DNA of 47,090 bases from a virus, in IMG/VR virus record IMGVR_UViG_3300048589_000486, positions 1 through 47,090 of that record, one strand, 5' to 3'. Below, in pieces: positions 30,288 through 44,330 of the stretch. The position numbers and the translations under genes are program-made. Position 1 is the stretch's first letter; the number at the start of each line of letters is the position of its first letter. The notes below the pieces were generated by a model. It did no database searches. It was not told the origin of the DNA and saw only the letters and a list, made by a program, of their open reading frames with translations.

Positions 30288-30637
30288 GGCACGATCATCC
30301 CGGCGCGGCGCATTGCCCGCTCGCGCCTCGCGCGTTCCTCGACCACGCGGTCGACCGTCGCGAAGTAGCCGGCGCCGTCGACGCGGTTGTCCCGCTTGGG
30401 CCGGTTGATCTCGCGCGAGACCTTGACGCAGACCATGATGAGACCGAACTCCTCCGGCGTGAGCGGGGAGCGGAGCTTGTGCGCGAGCATCGCCGAGATC
30501 ATCCCGGCGGTGCGCGTGAAGTCGTCCATCGGGTGCCCGTAGTCGTGCTCGCGGTCGCCGTAGACCAGGCGCGCGGCTTCCTCGAGGATCGACTCGTGGC
30601 CGGATGGTTGGATCTGGGCGGGAATCTCGGCGGTCAT
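30284..30637 (-). CDS. DUF6378-like phage protein
   Basis: The 117-residue product follows the DUF6378 pattern: SILEEAARLVYGDREHDYGH, PMDDFTRTAGMISAMLAHKL, LTPEEFGLIMVCVKVSREIN, and RPKRDNRVDGAGYFATVDRV. The helical, acidic/His-rich core resembles MazG-like all-alpha NTP hydrolases, but activity is not established. It overlaps the methyltransferase stop (ATGA). Confidence 0.8.
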   Translation of the reverse strand: MTAEIPAQIQPSGHESILEEAARLVYGDREHDYGHPMDDFTRTAGMISAMLAHKLRSPLTPEEFGLIMVCVKVSREINRPKRDNRVDGAGYFATVDRVVEERARRERAMRRAGMIVP

Positions 30638-31302
30638 CGGTCCCTCCGGAAGACGAACGACAGGATGTCCTCGCGCCCGATCCGCGTCTCGTCGTCGGTG
30701 ACCTCGACGAGCCGGAATCCGTGCGCGTCCATAAACGCGACGAAGCCGCGCTCCGTGAAATACCAGGCGTGCTCGTCGGGGCGGAAGTGCTTCGACCCGA
30801 GCGCGTGGGGCATGTCGCGGAAGATCGGCAGGGCAACGAAGGCGATGTCCCGGATGTTCGCGAGCAGCGGCGCCGGGTCGGCGATGTGCTCGAGCGAGTC
30901 CCAGAAGCAGGCCGCGCGCACCTCCTGCGCGTAGGGGTCGCACCACAGGTCGCGCCCGTTGAGCCAGGCGATGCCGGCTGGGTTCACGTCGTACCCCAGC
31001 GCCAGCGGGCGCGAGGCGACGAACTGGCCGCAGCCGATGCCCACGTCGACGAGCGGTCCGTCCCAGTGGCGCGCGACGAGCGCCAGGCGCGCAGCGTTCA
31101 GGCGACGCCCGATCTCCGTCTCGGCGTAGCCCTCGTACTTCGCGAAGTAGCTCTCGTCGTAGGGCTGCGCGCCCGCGAGCTGCAGGTAGCCGAAGCCGGG
31201 GTCGGCAACCCAGACGAGCGAGCGCGCCGCGAGCGCCCTACAGGCCGCGTTCCCACCGAAAAGCCGCCCACTGCTCGGTAAGGTGAGAATTGGTCTTCGC
31301 AC
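30634..31302 (-). CDS. SAM-dependent methyltransferase (class I)
   Basis: The recognisable domain starts with PYDESYFAKYEGYAETEIGR and has the SAM motif LVDVGIGCGQFVASRP, followed by YDVNPAGIAWL, ACFWDSLEHIADPAPLLANI and a C-terminal domain with RPDEHAWYFTERGFVAFMDA, typical of Methyltransf_23 small-molecule or sugar methylases. The start is uncertain: no ATG/GTG lies close, so GTG 31302 (222 residues) is given, overlapping the glycosyltransferase end by 65 bases; ATG 31359 is an alternative. It is the third gene of a glycan-type module. Confidence 0.78.
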   Translation of the reverse strand: MRRPILTLPSSGRLFGGNAACRALAARSLVWVADPGFGYLQLAGAQPYDESYFAKYEGYAETEIGRRLNAARLALVARHWDGPLVDVGIGCGQFVASRPLALGYDVNPAGIAWLNGRDLWCDPYAQEVRAACFWDSLEHIADPAPLLANIRDIAFVALPIFRDMPHALGSKHFRPDEHAWYFTERGFVAFMDAHGFRLVEVTDDETRIGREDILSFVFRRDR

Positions 31303-32110
31303 ACGCGTGCCGCATCTGATCGCACCGGCAGAAGTGGTCGGGCTCAGCGAATACGACATGGGACAGGTCCATCCGTGCGTCAGTGATGCGCTCGCGCGCG
31401 TTGTGGCCCCCGTGTCCGCCATGGATCACGAAGGCCGGTGTCCTGGCCGCGATTGCCGCCGGCACGATCCAGCCGACGCCGCCCACCACCACCGCGGCCG
31501 ACCGGACAAGGCCCAGCAGCTCGCGCACCGGCAGCTCGCCGGCGTGGAACCGCTCGTGCGCTGGCGGTGGCTCACCCACGAGCCACTCGGCACCGCCCGC
31601 GACGTCGGCGACGCTGACCACGTGGTAGTCCCGCATCAGTTCGGCGGCGACCTGGGCGACGTACGCCGGCAGCGGGTTACGCGCCGAGTTGTGCCACTCG
31701 GTGCGCTCGGTGACCGGTCGCACCAGGGCAACCGGCCGATCGCGCACGAACGGCGGGAACGCCGGCAGATCCCACCCCTCGGGCGCGACACGGAAGCACG
31801 ACTCCATCGCCTGCACGATCGACCCGTTGCGCAGACACGACGCCCCGTACGACACGCGGATCGTGCGGGCGAACCGCGCCGGCCGTGTCGACCAGCGCTC
31901 GGCGCCCTGCTTCGCCAGGTTCGCCGCCTGGGTGCGCAGGTTCGTGCCGGCGTACAGGAAGCGCACCGGCAGGTCGTCGAAGATCTCCGGCCACGGCGTC
32001 TCGATGTAGACGCTGTGACCGCTATCGCGCGCGAGCGCCTTGACGAACGCCCGCTCGTAGATGTTGTCGCCAAGGCCCTTCATGCCCTGGACGACGACCG
32101 CAGGCTTCAC
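31238..32110 (-). CDS. GT9/heptosyltransferase-like glycosyltransferase
   Basis: The 290-residue product starts at GTG 32110 (GTGA overlap): (M)KPAVVVQGMKGLGDNIYERA, the GT9-type glycine loop, then HSVYIETPWPEIFDDLP. The C-terminal half has LLGLVRSAAVVVGGVGWIVP and TPAFVIHGGHGGHN, equivalent to the GT-B donor site of ADP-heptose transferases, and a Cys/His tail (PDHFCRCDQMRHAC). It probably transfers a sugar to a surface glycan. Donor and acceptor are unknown. Confidence 0.7.
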   Translation of the reverse strand: MKPAVVVQGMKGLGDNIYERAFVKALARDSGHSVYIETPWPEIFDDLPVRFLYAGTNLRTQAANLAKQGAERWSTRPARFARTIRVSYGASCLRNGSIVQAMESCFRVAPEGWDLPAFPPFVRDRPVALVRPVTERTEWHNSARNPLPAYVAQVAAELMRDYHVVSVADVAGGAEWLVGEPPPAHERFHAGELPVRELLGLVRSAAVVVGGVGWIVPAAIAARTPAFVIHGGHGGHNARERITDARMDLSHVVFAEPDHFCRCDQMRHACAKTNSHLTEQWAAFRWERGL

Positions 32111-32751
32111 GCGCTGGCAGCGTAGAGAGCGCGATCGAGCGGCTCGCGCCGGAAACACCGCAGCGCCGTCTCCGTGGTCGCGTTGACCACGTCGATGCCT
32201 TCGGCCCTCAGGTCGCGCGCGAGGTCGCCGAACTGGCCGATCCAGTGCGAGAAGGGCAGATTGCGGTCAAGCTCCTTGTGGGCGTGCCGTCCGAACCAGT
32301 GCAGCGTCCCGCCGGTCGGCTGCATGTCGTAGCCGACCAGGATGATCCGGCGCGCGCCGAACAGGTACGCGAGGTTGATCGCCTGGTAACCGCTGTTGCC
32401 GCCACCGTGCACGGTGTTCGCCGTCTTCGTGAGCCCAGGGCGGCGCACGTGCCGGATGAGCTTCAGCCCGAAGCGCTTCGCCGCGGGCGCGTCCTGCGTC
32501 CAGAGCTCGCCGCCGAATCCGGAGAGCGCGATGTCGGCGAAGTGCGCGCCCCACCACCGCCCATCGCACGCGTAGAGCACGTCGGCGGCCTGGACACGCT
32601 TCCAGTTATCGTTCGCGACGATGACCTTGCATCGGTCATTCGCGCGCGCCACCGCGACGACGGCCGCTTGCTGCTCGCTGAAGCTCGGGCCGCTCGCGCA
32701 GCAGACGACGACCTCCCAGCCCGGGCGAACCAGGCCGGGAGGTGCGGACAT
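32107..32751 (-). CDS. DUF115/MptE-like glycan-associated protein
   Basis: The 214-residue product has VVVCCASGPSFSEQQAAVVA at the N-terminus, VLYACDGRWWGAHF, and the signature HGGGNSGYQAINLAYLFGAR followed by RIILVGYDMQ. This Rossmann-like fold occurs in DUF115 proteins, which include motility-accessory glycosylation factors and sialyltransferase-like enzymes, and in phage proteins of unknown role. Its coupling (GTGA) to a GT9-like gene supports a sugar-linked job. The exact reaction is not known. Confidence 0.68.
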   Translation of the reverse strand: MSAPPGLVRPGWEVVVCCASGPSFSEQQAAVVAVARANDRCKVIVANDNWKRVQAADVLYACDGRWWGAHFADIALSGFGGELWTQDAPAAKRFGLKLIRHVRRPGLTKTANTVHGGGNSGYQAINLAYLFGARRIILVGYDMQPTGGTLHWFGRHAHKELDRNLPFSHWIGQFGDLARDLRAEGIDVVNATTETALRCFRREPLDRALYAASA

Positions 32752-33305: not shown

Positions 33306-33881
33306 TCAATTCTCCTGGCGCGTGAGCGCGTTGATTCCGCTCTGCTGATCGTTCGAGCGGCGGTTGTTCTGCTGGTAGGTCTGGCCCATCCAGAAGCCCA
33401 TGATCCCGCCCAACACGAGGCCGATGACGGTCCCGATCGTCTGGGCGATCACGTCGGACGACACCTTGCTCATGTGCTCGACCAGCTTGACCACGATGAT
33501 GTAGACCAGGGGCAGCACCATCATCGTTACCAGGAGCACCGGGTTCAGCACCAGCTTCCACCACTTATCGGCCGAAGCGATAAGCGTGGTATTCGCCTCG
33601 CGCGCCTCCTTGATGCCGGTGGGCCCGATCGCGAGCATCGATTCGAGGACCGGGTGCGAGATCACGGCAGCCGCGGCGGCGGCTCGCACGGCCGGATCGG
33701 CCTGCGCCATCTCGACCGCCTGCTGCGCGTTGACCGCGCCCGGGACCGCCTTGGTGAAGGTGTCGACCACGATCTGCGCGGCCTTCGTGTTGCGCTCGCC
33801 CTTCTCGCCCTTGCCGAACAGGCCCATGAGCGCTGGGATCATTTCGAGAATCGCGGGCAGGAACATCAGGACTGGTGCCAT
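33306..33881 (-). CDS. Internal in-frame start: holin-like membrane protein
   Basis: An ATG at 33881 with GAGGAGGAG 4 bases upstream starts (M)APVLMFLPAILEMIPALMG, giving a 191-residue product. It has an N-terminal hydrophobic segment, a helical central part and two C-terminal spans (VLLVTMMVLPLVYIIVV and TIGTVIGLVLGGIMGFW), followed by a polar tail. It is similar in style to phage holins of the large TM type. Separate translation is an inference from the ribosome site. Confidence 0.6.
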   Translation of the reverse strand: MAPVLMFLPAILEMIPALMGLFGKGEKGERNTKAAQIVVDTFTKAVPGAVNAQQAVEMAQADPAVRAAAAAAVISHPVLESMLAIGPTGIKEAREANTTLIASADKWWKLVLNPVLLVTMMVLPLVYIIVVKLVEHMSKVSSDVIAQTIGTVIGLVLGGIMGFWMGQTYQQNNRRSNDQQSGINALTRQEN

Positions 33882-34430
33882 CGTCTCCTCCTCAATCGGT
33901 TGGTACGGCACGCTGCGGTCCTCGATCGGAGCAGCGGGTTGCGTGTCGGACTCTCCCGCGGCGAGACGCCCGCCGTGGCGACGGTAGACGTCGAGCGCGC
34001 GGGCCATCGTGTAGCGCCCGGAGTTCTCGCTCGCCCCTGGCAGGCTCGTCCAGGTCGGGCGCAGCTTGGTGATCGCCGTCTCGATGCGCCCGGCCATCAC
34101 GTCGTCGAGCGCGCCGCGGTCGTGGATCAGGAGCACCGCCCCTGCGTCCTGCGAGCGTGGCGAGAAGTCGGGCAGCGCCCACGGGTAACGACGGCGCAGG
34201 TCCGCCCAGGTCGTCGGCAGGAACTGGTGGGCGCCCGATGCCCGCCCGCCGCGCGTGGTCGGCAGCTCGCCGAACGGGTGGGCCGCGAACGACGCGAAGT
34301 GCGCGCCCCCGTTGATGAGCGTGTAGGCGTCATCGGTCTGGTTGCTCTCGCCCTCGCGCAGCACGCGCAGGAACGCGCCGACGTTCGCGTGCGAGAGAGC
34401 TACCGCGAGGCGGGTGGCGTCCATGGTCAT
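33306..34430 (-). CDS. Endolysin (GH104, lambda R-like) fused to a membrane domain
   Basis: The 374-residue product has two parts. Residues about 15-165 align with lambda R transglycosylase: NVGAFLRVLREGES (catalytic Glu26), GGAHFASFAAHPF, ASGAHQFLPTTWADL, DFSPRSQDAGAVLLI, TWTSLPGASENSG. Residues 184-374 contain hydrophobic spans (about 185-203, 291-312, 330-350) with no stop in between. Lambda R has only the first part. Either a membrane-tethered lysin is made, or the second half is also translated alone from its own start at 33881. Confidence 0.88.
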   Translation of the reverse strand: MTMDATRLAVALSHANVGAFLRVLREGESNQTDDAYTLINGGAHFASFAAHPFGELPTTRGGRASGAHQFLPTTWADLRRRYPWALPDFSPRSQDAGAVLLIHDRGALDDVMAGRIETAITKLRPTWTSLPGASENSGRYTMARALDVYRRHGGRLAAGESDTQPAAPIEDRSVPYQPIEEETMAPVLMFLPAILEMIPALMGLFGKGEKGERNTKAAQIVVDTFTKAVPGAVNAQQAVEMAQADPAVRAAAAAAVISHPVLESMLAIGPTGIKEAREANTTLIASADKWWKLVLNPVLLVTMMVLPLVYIIVVKLVEHMSKVSSDVIAQTIGTVIGLVLGGIMGFWMGQTYQQNNRRSNDQQSGINALTRQEN

Positions 34431-34446: not shown

Positions 34447-34740
34447 TCACTTCGGGCCCACGCTGCCCCCGCGCAGGATGTACTGCTGAATGTCCCGCAT
34501 CGCGGTCTCGATGCGGGCGACCGAGTCGCGCACGAGGGCGTCCTGCGCGGCGTCGATGCGTTGCTGCACCTTCTGCGATTCCTCGACGACCGCGAGCCGC
34601 GTCTCGATCCGCTGCCCCCACAAGAACATCCCGAGCAGCATCGACACCGCGATCAAGATGTCCCCGGTGGAGACCTCGCGTTTGAGCTTCCAGGGGTCCG
34701 GCTTGCGCGCCCCCCAGCCATCGCCGTCTTGCATGGTCAC
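34447..34740 (-). CDS. Membrane protein of the lysis region (holin or anchor)
   Basis: The 97-residue product has a single span (STGDILIAVSMLLGMFLWG, about 24-42) followed by a coiled coil (ETRLAVVEESQKVQQRIDAA, LVRDSVARIETAMRDI). The topology and its place directly before the endolysin resemble class III holins or DUF2730-like phage membrane proteins. The role is a position-based guess. Confidence 0.6.
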   Translation of the reverse strand: MTMQDGDGWGARKPDPWKLKREVSTGDILIAVSMLLGMFLWGQRIETRLAVVEESQKVQQRIDAAQDALVRDSVARIETAMRDIQQYILRGGSVGPK

Positions 34741-40451: not shown

Positions 40452-43400
40452 TCAGCGTGAGGATCGGCGGTCGATGTCGCGGAGCACCGGCACGAGGAAC
40501 CGGCGCACGTTTTCCTGCGAGAAGATGTCCTCGGCCGACGCGTTGAGGTTGACCGTGATCGCCGCGGCGCCGCTCGCCATCGGCGCGACGGCCACGCCAC
40601 CGCCGGCCCCCGCCGTCACCTGCCCGCCGTCGGCGTAGTAGCGCGGCCTCTCCGGCGCCGCCGGACCGCGCAGCATCGCGGCGAGCGATTCGCGCGAGAA
40701 GCGCATGCTGTTGACCGCGTGCAGGAAGCCAGCGCCGAGCTGATCGACGCGCGACCTGTTCACGACGAACTCGCCCGGCGTGAGCATCGCGGGAACGGTA
40801 TCCGTGCCGCGCTCCGGCGCCTGGCCGCCACGCCGCAGGAACAGGTAGCCCAGCAATTGCTGACTGACCACCGAAGGCACGCGCCAGTCGCGCGCCGTCT
40901 GGATCCCGCTCAGGAATCCCTCGAAGGACTCCTCGAGCATGTCGGCGACGATCTTGACCTTCTCGTCCTTCAGGTACGGTAGCTTGTTCAGGATCGCCGA
41001 CGCCCACAGCCCGATGTCCAGGCCGGTCGAACTCCGCGGCAGGCCGCGCGCCGCCTCGACGATCGTGGTGAGCTGCCGCAGAATCTTCTGGTAGTCGAGC
41101 CCCGGCACCTGGCGCCCGCTGCCGCCGGCGCCGAGCGTGATCGGTCCGGACTTCCCGCCCAGGGCCGGCAGCGATCCGACGGGCCCGCCGAGCGCGAACC
41201 GCTGCACGCCGCGCGCAGCGAGCGAGCGCATCATCCCGTCGCCGTAGTAGCGGCTCGCCGCCTTCTTGACGACGAACGATCCGGCCTGCAGCGCCGCCGG
41301 CACGGTGTCGCCGTTGCCGACGCCGGGCACCTTCGACCACCCCGGGCGCCGGAAGACGCCGCCGCCGTTCGCGAAGTGCTGCACCGTGCGCCTGGCGGTG
41401 GGCCACGCGCGCGTGAGCGCCGCGAGCTTCTCGCCCACGATGCCGCCGGCCGCATTGGCCTCGACCGTCTTGACGGTGACCGTATGCGTGGACGAGGTGT
41501 CTCGCCCCTGCAGGCTGTCGATCTCCGCCTTCGCCTTCGTCACCGACGCCGTGTCGGTCTCGATTGTGATCGAGATGCCCTTGGCGATGATGGCGTTGAC
41601 CGCGTCGAGCTCCTTGCGCAGATTCTCGAGCTGCACCCGCGACGACTCGAGGTTCTGCTGCGTCGCCTTCGCGCCGGCCTCCTCCGCCTTGACGCGCTCG
41701 TCGATGACGTCGTTGAGCACTTCCTGGGCGAGCTTGAGCTTCGAGACTGCGGTCTCCTGGGCGCGGAACTGGGAGACGATCGTCTCGCCGTTCTTCTCGA
41801 CCTTGGACGCGATGCCAGCGGTGAGCTCGACCGCCTTCTTGGCGTACTCCTCGGCCGCCTTGAAGTCGCCCTCGGCGAAAGCCCGGCGCGCCTTGCTGAT
41901 GTTCTCGTCGATCTGCCGGACCTTGTCGTAGTACTGGTCGTAGTCCGACAGGTTCGTCCGCCGCAGCTCGCGGATCCTCTCCTCGATCGTCTCGTTGACG
42001 GTGATGCGCTGCTTGTTGAGCTCGGCGATCTTGTTGAGGTGCGAGGTCTCGATCCCGATCAGCGTCGCGACGTGCGCCTCGTACTGCTGGACGATGCCGG
42101 TCAGCGCGGCCTGCTTCGACTTCGCGACCTGCGCCTCGGCCTTCGTGACCTCTTCCGCGGTCCGGCCCGCCGCGCTGGTGCGCGCGAGCGCCTCCGCGTC
42201 GGCCGCCTTGATCGCCTCGGCGCTCGCCTTCTGCAGGATCGCGAGCCGGTCGTCGGCCGCCTTCTTCTGGATCGCGACGAGCGCCGTCGCGTTGTCCGCC
42301 TCGCTCTGCCGCAGCTTGTCGAGCCCTGCCGCCTGCGTTGCCGCCTGCTGATTGATCGCCTGGATCGCCGCCGACGAAGCGGACTGGATCGCCTTGCCGG
42401 CCGACTCGAGCTCGGGGATCAGTGCCGAGAGTTCGGCGCGCAGCGCGGCGAGTCGCACGCGCGAGGCCTCGGCCTGCGCCGCGGCGGCCTGCGCGATCGC
42501 GGTCTCGGCATCGCCCACCGTCTGCGCCGTCGCCGCGACCTGCTGCCCGGTGTCGAAGAGGTCCTTCGTCACCTTCGTCGCCGCATCCGAGACGGCCTGC
42601 AGCGCGACGGGGACGAGGCTCAGTGGGTTGGTGAGCTGCCCGACGGTGCGCGACAGCAGATCCGTCGCCCGTCCGATCCCGCTCGTCGACCCCTGCGCGT
42701 CGCGCGCCGCGCGCGCGAGTCGATCCACGACCTGCACCAGATTCGCGAGCGAGTTGATCGTCGCGGTCGACGGCGTAGCGATCTGGCCGAGAGTCGTGAC
42801 CAGGTTCTTGAGGGAAGCGGTCAGGCGCTCCACCGCCTCGGCGTTCAGTCGATTCAGGGAGTCGGACGCCTTGTCGAGCGCGCCGGCAGACCCGCCGATC
42901 TGCTCCATCGCCCTGGCGAGCGCGGTCGAGTCGTTGGTGAGCGCCGCGACGCCAGCGGCCGCGCGCTTCGACGAGACGCCGAGCTGCAGGATCTCGTCGA
43001 GGCCGAGCCCACGCTCCGAGATCTGCTGCAGCGTGCCCACGAGCCCGCGCGACTCGATGCCGAGGTCCTTGAGGCCTTTGACCGTGTCGGCCGACGAGAG
43101 CCGCGTCATGATCTGGGTGAGCTGGCCGATCGCGCCGGGCGCGTCCAGGCCCGCCTTGGTCATCACCTGGATGGCTGCCGCGACCTCCTCGATCGGCGTT
43201 CCGGTCGCCTTCGCGATGGGCGCGAGCTCCCCGAGGCCCTGCGCCAGCTCCCCGAACGTCGCCCCTCCGTTCTGCATCGACACGAAGAGCGCATCGAGCG
43301 TCGGCTTGAGCTCCTGCGCGTCGAGCCCGAAGCCGCGGATCAGCACGCCGGAGAGCTTCGCCGCCTCACCGAGCGAGGCCACGCCGGCCTTCGCCGCATC

Positions 43401-44330
43401 GTCGGCGGTTGCCAGGACCTCGAGCACGTTGCCGGCGGGAACGCCTGCGCGCAGCAGGTCGTAGACCGCCTTGAGGCCTTCCTGCAGGTCGAAGCCCAGC
43501 GTCTGCGACAAGTCGCGCACGCCCTGGCCGAGCTCGCCCAGTTGCTCCTCGGTGAGGTTCGCCACCGTGCCGATGCGCGCCGTCGCGATCTCGTACTCGC
43601 GCGCCGCAGCGACGGCGGCATTCACGGCTGCCACCACCCCACCGATCGCCGCGGCTGTCGCCAGGGCGCCGGCGCGGGCCGTCGCGAACGATTGCGCGAG
43701 CCCACCCTGCTCCCGCGCCAGCTCGCTCGTCCGCTGCACGAGCGCGCGGTGCGCCTGCGCGAGCTCGGTCACCGACGCACCGCTGTTGCGCAGGGTCGCG
43801 TACGCGGCGTTGAGCTTCGCGATCTCGGCCGCGGTATCCTTCGCCGACTTGACGCCAAGCGTCAGGCGCGCCTGTTGCTCGGCCTGCGCCTTCGTCGCCT
43901 TGACAATCTCGGCCGCGAGCCTCTTCTCTTCGGCCGCGAGCCTCGAGGTGTCGACGCCCGCCTTCTCCAGTTGGCCCGAGAGGCGCTTGAGTGCGTCGGC
44001 CTGGCGGTTGTACTCCTTCGATGTAGCGGCGATCTGCTTCTCGGTCAGCTTGAGCGCCTCGGTGAGCTCCTTCCCCACCTTCCCGCCGCTGCCCTCGATC
44101 TGCGCGATCTGCTGCCGGAACTCCGCCGCGCGCGCCGACAGGTCGTCGAACTTCTTGGCCGCCGCCGCCGCCTGCGCCTCCGTGTTTTTGAAGAGCTCGA
44201 CCTTCCCGGTCGTGCGCTCGAGCTCCGTCGTCGCGCTCTGGACCTTGCCCTTCAGCCGCGCCAGTACCGCCGCGATGTCGCTGTCGTCTCCGTTGAAGGC
44301 TATCCGGAACGACGATTCGCGCTCGGCCAT
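40452..44330 (-). CDS. Tape measure protein
   Basis: The 1292-residue product starts MAERESSFRIAFNGDDSDIA. The N-terminal 260 residues are coiled coil. A PhageMin_Tail (TP901-type) core follows at about 270-480 (IATARIGTVANLTEEQLGEL, LKAVYDLLRAGVPAGNVLEV, LIRGFGLDAQELKPTLDALF). The C-terminus has lambda-like motifs GNGDTVPAALQAGSFVVKKA and GTDTVPAMLTPGEFVVNRS. It sets tail length; a long flexible siphovirus tail is expected. It follows the G/GT chaperones. Confidence 0.95.
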   Translation of the reverse strand: MAERESSFRIAFNGDDSDIAAVLARLKGKVQSATTELERTTGKVELFKNTEAQAAAAAKKFDDLSARAAEFRQQIAQIEGSGGKVGKELTEALKLTEKQIAATSKEYNRQADALKRLSGQLEKAGVDTSRLAAEEKRLAAEIVKATKAQAEQQARLTLGVKSAKDTAAEIAKLNAAYATLRNSGASVTELAQAHRALVQRTSELAREQGGLAQSFATARAGALATAAAIGGVVAAVNAAVAAAREYEIATARIGTVANLTEEQLGELGQGVRDLSQTLGFDLQEGLKAVYDLLRAGVPAGNVLEVLATADDAAKAGVASLGEAAKLSGVLIRGFGLDAQELKPTLDALFVSMQNGGATFGELAQGLGELAPIAKATGTPIEEVAAAIQVMTKAGLDAPGAIGQLTQIMTRLSSADTVKGLKDLGIESRGLVGTLQQISERGLGLDEILQLGVSSKRAAAGVAALTNDSTALARAMEQIGGSAGALDKASDSLNRLNAEAVERLTASLKNLVTTLGQIATPSTATINSLANLVQVVDRLARAARDAQGSTSGIGRATDLLSRTVGQLTNPLSLVPVALQAVSDAATKVTKDLFDTGQQVAATAQTVGDAETAIAQAAAAQAEASRVRLAALRAELSALIPELESAGKAIQSASSAAIQAINQQAATQAAGLDKLRQSEADNATALVAIQKKAADDRLAILQKASAEAIKAADAEALARTSAAGRTAEEVTKAEAQVAKSKQAALTGIVQQYEAHVATLIGIETSHLNKIAELNKQRITVNETIEERIRELRRTNLSDYDQYYDKVRQIDENISKARRAFAEGDFKAAEEYAKKAVELTAGIASKVEKNGETIVSQFRAQETAVSKLKLAQEVLNDVIDERVKAEEAGAKATQQNLESSRVQLENLRKELDAVNAIIAKGISITIETDTASVTKAKAEIDSLQGRDTSSTHTVTVKTVEANAAGGIVGEKLAALTRAWPTARRTVQHFANGGGVFRRPGWSKVPGVGNGDTVPAALQAGSFVVKKAASRYYGDGMMRSLAARGVQRFALGGPVGSLPALGGKSGPITLGAGGSGRQVPGLDYQKILRQLTTIVEAARGLPRSSTGLDIGLWASAILNKLPYLKDEKVKIVADMLEESFEGFLSGIQTARDWRVPSVVSQQLLGYLFLRRGGQAPERGTDTVPAMLTPGEFVVNRSRVDQLGAGFLHAVNSMRFSRESLAAMLRGPAAPERPRYYADGGQVTAGAGGGVAVAPMASGAAAITVNLNASAEDIFSQENVRRFLVPVLRDIDRRSSR

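Follow-up and report, generated by a model that had tools for sequence, protein, structure and literature searches.

We identified a putative phage lysis gene in which an endolysin continues in frame, through a linker, into a complete holin domain, and in which a start codon with its own ribosome site is retained inside the reading frame at the first residue of the holin part. At the level of sequence comparison, this fusion recurs with three enzyme types, the internal start and its ribosome site are conserved, and the membrane part is homologous to the holin TeaA of Vibrio phage ICP1. We consider it likely that this is a dual-start lysis gene providing both a tethered endolysin-holin and a free holin. 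The two would co-assemble in the membrane, and the enzyme would be delivered upon triggering.

The analysed stretch of DNA, hereafter called the window, is a tailed-phage record of 47,090 bases. It carries genes for terminase, portal, major head protein, tape measure and integrase, and on account of this gene content the phage is probably temperate. The fusion gene is located on the minus strand downstream of the tail genes (tape measure gene at 40452-44330), and lysis genes commonly sit after tail genes. Its frame starts with an ATG at 34430 and extends over 374 codons without an internal stop to a stop codon ending at 33306. Thereby, the in-frame fusion of an endolysin and a membrane protein proposed in the original prediction was confirmed to the base at 33306-34430, with the strand, unstated there, now added. 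The frame comprises a GH104 endolysin, a linker and a TeaA-type holin domain (374 aa in total), and homologous fusions occur in 46 other distinct genes.

The lysozyme domain of the lambda R / P2 gpK type covers residues 6-158 (33957-34415, minus strand). The enzyme half matches phrog_90 (E 2e-27) and the PDB entries 1am7/3d3d (E 6e-13) and shares 38.6% identity with P2 gpK; by this homology across the enzyme fold it is a GH104 endolysin of the lambda R / P2 gpK family. The predicted catalytic Glu26, encoded by the codon at 34353-34355 (minus strand), is invariant in 18 aligned GH104 fusions, and we take its catalytic role from what is known of the lambda R family. Both the family assignment and this residue had been anticipated from the sequence, and both agree with the family matches and the alignment. 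The enzyme of the fusion bears no signal peptide. It is followed by a linker at residues 159-183 (33882-33956, minus strand), which was predicted with low structural confidence (pLDDT <50 at residues 160-184 of a 372-residue model) and whose length varies widely in relatives.

The membrane domain, together with the internal start ATG, occupies 33306-33881 (minus strand) and corresponds to a predicted free holin of 191 aa. An hhalign comparison of the fused family with ICP1 TeaA gave a probability of 98.2% over 167 columns, from Met to Met, and a comparison with TeaA plus unfused relatives gave 99.1%, the hhalign E-values being those of single comparisons. TeaA itself matches phrog_1544 (2e-53), as do 38 of the 46 aligned domain members, and the distant unfused relative L157 matches ICP1 teaA by tblastn. 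The window's own membrane domain matches phrog_1544 at an E-value of only 5e-4; a tblastn search of it against cultured phages returned nothing, and TeaA was reached only through L157. Pfam and NCBIfam gave no meaningful match for the membrane domain, and weak matches to ACP and DUF2613 were discarded as noise. A fold search of the domain against BFVD and PDB also gave no significant match. TeaA is experimentally supported as a holin, with DNP (dinitrophenol) as a trigger and a collapse of the proton motive force as its effect (PMC7182436). Its authors linked it to GTA_holin_3TM (PF11351) (PMC7182436); this family was absent among the 25 families listed for 46 members of our set, so membership of the membrane domain in PF11351 is not claimed and the link is left to the TeaA paper (PMC7182436). 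By profile comparison, the membrane domain is homologous to TeaA from its Met onward, which turns the earlier label "holin-like" into homology with an experimentally supported holin.

The AlphaFold2 model of the membrane domain (pLDDT 82) consists of an N-terminal helix, a helical middle part and a two-helix hairpin. The hairpin comprises holin-domain helices 114-139 and 142-165 (33387-33542, minus strand), which the model and the charge pattern mark as transmembrane. The N-terminal helix (holin-domain residues 2-21; 33819-33878, minus strand) is amphipathic or hydrophobic according to the model, hydropathy and moment: the family means are 1.4 for hydropathy and 0.45 for the moment, and the helix of the window is more hydrophobic (1.9). 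Of the three hydrophobic spans described originally, two therefore stand as clear transmembrane spans, whereas the third is an amphipathic helix in the family, which may rest on the membrane surface without crossing it. At the family level, the loop between the spans is acidic (0.08 K/R, 1.8 D/E) and the tail is basic (2.6 K/R), which places the loop outside and both ends as well as the enzyme in the cytoplasm, so that the topology would be that of an N-in/C-in hairpin. Transmembrane spans, a short loop and a basic C-tail, as expected for a TeaA-type holin, are all present in the predicted structure.

Profile searches with the membrane domain alone as query, against IMG/VR contigs and Burkholderiales genomes, yielded 47 distinct in-frame fusions, including that of the window. 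The enzymes preceding the domain belong to three unrelated types, namely GH104 (25 fusions), GH19 (14) and GH24 (8). As only the membrane half was used as query, sampling does not account for the predominance of fusions. In the first relative (L001), the membrane domain follows a GH24 lysozyme instead, and the junction again has a Met and AAGGAG. Matches in genomes include Acidovorax, Pelomonas and Methylibium; 10 of 400 Acidovorax-family genomes were positive, in some cases with distant unfused relatives as the only match, and none was found among the plasmids searched. The search for the fusion among other phage lysins that had been suggested thus revealed recurrence, and the proposed counter-case, that close relatives would have separate proteins only, does not apply, since 47 distinct fusions recur. 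Also, a sequencing error or missed stop codon near residue 183 is excluded by the 46 further fusions.

Residue 184 of the fusion is a Met encoded by the ATG at 33881-33879. The ribosome site GAGGAGGAG is located at 33893-33885 (minus strand), 3 nt upstream, where it encodes EEE of the linker, and its pairing energy with the anti-SD sequence (-11.2) is the strongest among the 47 homologues, in agreement with the internal start first noticed in the window. A start codon was found at the junction in all 47 fusions (45 ATG, 2 GTG). Both GTG junctions, caggaggctccc GTG in L128 and aaggagaagatt GTG in L133, have AGGAGG or AAGGAG upstream; here, Met is replaced by a valine codon that still serves as a bacterial start. 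The SD energy had a median of -7.2 at the junctions and of -2.8 at the remaining in-frame ATG/GTG codons of these ORFs (n = 843; Mann-Whitney p 3e-21), a statistic which ignores relatedness, so that significance values from these related sequences are optimistic. A start codon combined with an SD energy <= -6 was present at 39 of 47 junctions vs 9.6% of random 13-codon windows from the same ORFs. After clustering at 50% identity, all 11 clusters had the start and 9 of 11 an SD energy <= -6. Synonymous recoding of the seven upstream codons weakened the pairing, with an observed mean of -7.39 vs -5.93 for the recoded sequences (sd 0.32; 0 of 300 as low), which indicates selection on the nucleotides beyond that on the amino acids. 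The amino acids over the SD site differ (KE, QE, EE, GG, EV, KG) and the purine motif is kept. A few junctions have weak ribosome sites (L093, -2.6; L123, -3.5). Of 45 genes compared, 30 pair more strongly at the internal site than at the best candidate for the first start (-11.2 vs -3.5 in the window), which predicts more free holin than fusion. Judged by the start in 47 of 47 fusions and the SD statistics, the gene has the conserved in-frame start with a ribosome site of an internal-start endolysin gene. The comparative evidence supports this well, and two polypeptides are probably produced from the one gene.

Only three members of the same domain clade are unfused (L085, L095 and L131, vs 47 fusions). 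Their lysin gene overlaps the start of the holin gene by about 16-46 bases in the -1 frame, and inspection of these overlaps by eye revealed no clear slippery site for programmed -1 frameshifting. Unfused relatives at a greater distance are Polaromonas phage Tiera_017, located directly behind a lysin-like gene with a short gap, and Edwardsiella phage ZHX_gp27, where the overlap with a GH108 gene is 1 base. Two ORFs beginning within the domain (L151 and L152) turned out to be contig-end truncations. Among the fusions, at least 34 distinct linker lengths occur, all in frame (multiples of three bases), and the membrane-domain tree shows at least 15 changes of enzyme type among fused genes. Supported sister pairs with different enzymes are L119 (GH19) and L128 (GH104), whose holin domains are almost identical, L121 (GH104) and L138 (GH19), and L106 (GH104) and L111 (GH24). 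The window's own branch on this tree is long and its placement uncertain. Retention of the fusion through so many linker and enzyme changes suggests that the fused product matters. However, swaps among already fused genes keep the frame automatically, which explains part of the pattern and weakens the argument from the frame.

The lysins of the three unfused clade members (L085:4219-4989, L095:4240-5043 and L131:2441-3010) end in short cationic, aromatic and amphipathic tails (FQRIAKWFRS, WLRSLQQQFRRLFN and SWFHSLLRLFRS), whose coding sequence runs into the holin start in the -1 frame. The amphipathic moment of these tails was clearly above that of shuffled sequences only for L095. Such tails could be an alternative membrane tether.

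Further observations concern the neighbourhood of the gene. The upstream neighbour (34447-34740, minus strand) encodes 97 aa with one transmembrane span and a probable coiled coil, as judged from ORF and hydropathy; it had no significant family match and is a possible accessory lysis protein. Unrelated small one-span proteins, possibly accessory lysis proteins as well, occupy the same upstream place in many relatives. Upstream of the fused lysin-holin, L112 and L106 encode a phrog_2359 holin-like protein and another small multi-span protein, which may give these phages two holin systems. On the other side, the next gene of the window (33303 and below, minus strand) begins two bases past the fusion stop, and its GGAG ribosome site sits within the final codons of the holin domain; gene packing as tight as this may favour fusions. 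A cluster at 30634-32751 (minus strand), a short distance past the lysis gene, comprises a methyltransferase, a phrog_6804 protein and a sialyltransferase-like protein (phrog_4603).

According to the reading we prefer, translation from the first ATG (34430) would give an endolysin with a complete TeaA-type holin as its C-terminus. With this C-terminus and without a signal peptide, the enzyme would stay on the inner face of the membrane, anchored there by the holin hairpin. The internal ATG (33881), with its strong Shine-Dalgarno site, would yield the free 191-aa holin, which is probably in excess and would build the lesion. Both forms would co-assemble in the membrane, and upon triggering the fused lysin, being already at the lesion, would reach the peptidoglycan; until then, the tether may keep the enzyme inactive, as envisaged from the start. 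Some observations do not sit easily with this dual-start, tethered arrangement. The phrog_2359 holin encoded upstream in L112 and L106 means that these phages may have a holin besides the fused domain, the three unfused clade members show that fusion is not strictly required, some junction ribosome sites are weak, and the match of the window's domain to phrog_1544 is a distant one.

Other explanations for the fused frame were weighed against it. Cleavage in the linker could release a soluble endolysin, in which case the fusion would be a polyprotein that just co-expresses lysin and holin. The variable length and predicted disorder of the linkers fit such processing, but no conserved cleavage motif is apparent in them, a holin released by cleavage would leave no need for the conserved internal start, and adjacent genes in the unfused relatives already achieve co-expression, so we regard a polyprotein as unlikely. 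Chance loss of a stop codon between adjacent or overlapping genes, leaving a free holin and a harmlessly extended enzyme, finds its possible starting points in the 1-nt overlap of ZHX, the short gap of Tiera and the -1-frame overlaps of L085, L095 and L131. A neutral origin is nevertheless quite unlikely in view of 47 fusions against three unfused genes, with all the linker lengths and enzyme changes in frame. As the fusion contains all parts, the full-length protein might function alone with a vestigial internal start; the start codon kept in every fusion (twice as GTG) and the selection on the SD site at the nucleotide level make this very unlikely. Least credible is a virion-associated lysozyme whose membrane domain serves genome entry instead of host lysis. 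The position downstream of the tail genes would suit it, but this is a common place for lysis genes too, the domain is homologous to the TeaA holin, and the enzymes belong to the endolysin families phrog_90 and phrog_7.

Alternative starts in the lambda S gene give the active holin S105 and the N-terminally extended form S107. The gene described here resembles this pair, as its alternative starts would also give a holin and an extended form, and differs from it in that the extension of S107 consists of two residues and here comprises a whole endolysin. By this analogy, the full-length fusion might be an antiholin, in which the bulky cytoplasmic enzyme blocks insertion or flipping of the N-terminal helix; the ratio of fusion to free holin would set the lysis time, and depolarisation would convert both forms. 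Such a built-in brake is a serious possibility, if short of probable. In its favour are the two starts, the internal one strong and conserved, and the conserved, amphipathic N-terminal helix, which the fusion would keep on the cytoplasmic face. Antiholins also often arise from alternative starts in holin genes (PMC7182436). The idea is weakened by the possibility that the N-terminal helix does not span the membrane in TeaA-type holins. A brake is compatible with the dual-start, tethered reading, and the two are not exclusive. Combining them, we tentatively suggest that the endolysin could be a subunit of the hole assembly and at the same time its brake, the fused form delaying triggering and then being carried to the peptidoglycan while still attached. 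If this is true, a single modular gene, with an enzyme cassette that phages exchange, would provide enzyme, tether, timer and hole.

Several known systems share single features with this gene. The domain is homologous to ICP1 TeaA over nearly its whole length, from Met to Met, and is of similar length; TeaA, however, is encoded by a separate gene without a fused enzyme, as is its regulator ArrA, whereas here an endolysin precedes the holin in frame. A TpeE-family protein of Clostridium sporogenes likewise combines holin and endolysin in one polypeptide, but its holin belongs to another family and is N-terminal, with the enzyme C-terminal (PMC9527704). The window fusion has the reverse order. 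The Clostridium fusion was described from six isolates of one species, and the section describing it mentions no internal start (PMC9527704). In Gram-positive two-polypeptide endolysins, an in-frame start inside the gene has a ribosome site of its own, and the two products have a common C-terminus (PMC9430671; PMC4777826; PMC3111421). The short product of LysP7951 (PMC9430671) and CTP1L (PMC4777826) is a C-terminal lysin polypeptide and no membrane holin, that of CTP1L being a wall-binding domain (PMC4777826); for Ms6 lysA it is a second lysin, again not a membrane holin (PMC3111421). In the open-access literature, we found no report of a TeaA-type holin at the C-terminus of an endolysin together with a conserved internal start, and PMC9527704 was the sole true precedent found for an endolysin-holin fusion. 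Holin-endolysin fusions and internal-start endolysins are hence already known; the order, the parts and the short product are what is new here.

In the canonical model, endolysin and holin are separate proteins, and the enzyme diffuses through holes made by the holin. The occurrence of three unrelated enzymes on one holin, together with a conserved start for the free holin, implies selection for a physical coupling of enzyme and hole. The gene thus offers a natural system for asking whether an endolysin must diffuse freely or can be delivered by the holin. It would also add Gram-negative hosts to the range of dual-start endolysin genes, and its short product is of a new kind. The unannotated family phrog_1544 gains a lead to its function, and annotation pipelines would miss a holin that is embedded in this way.
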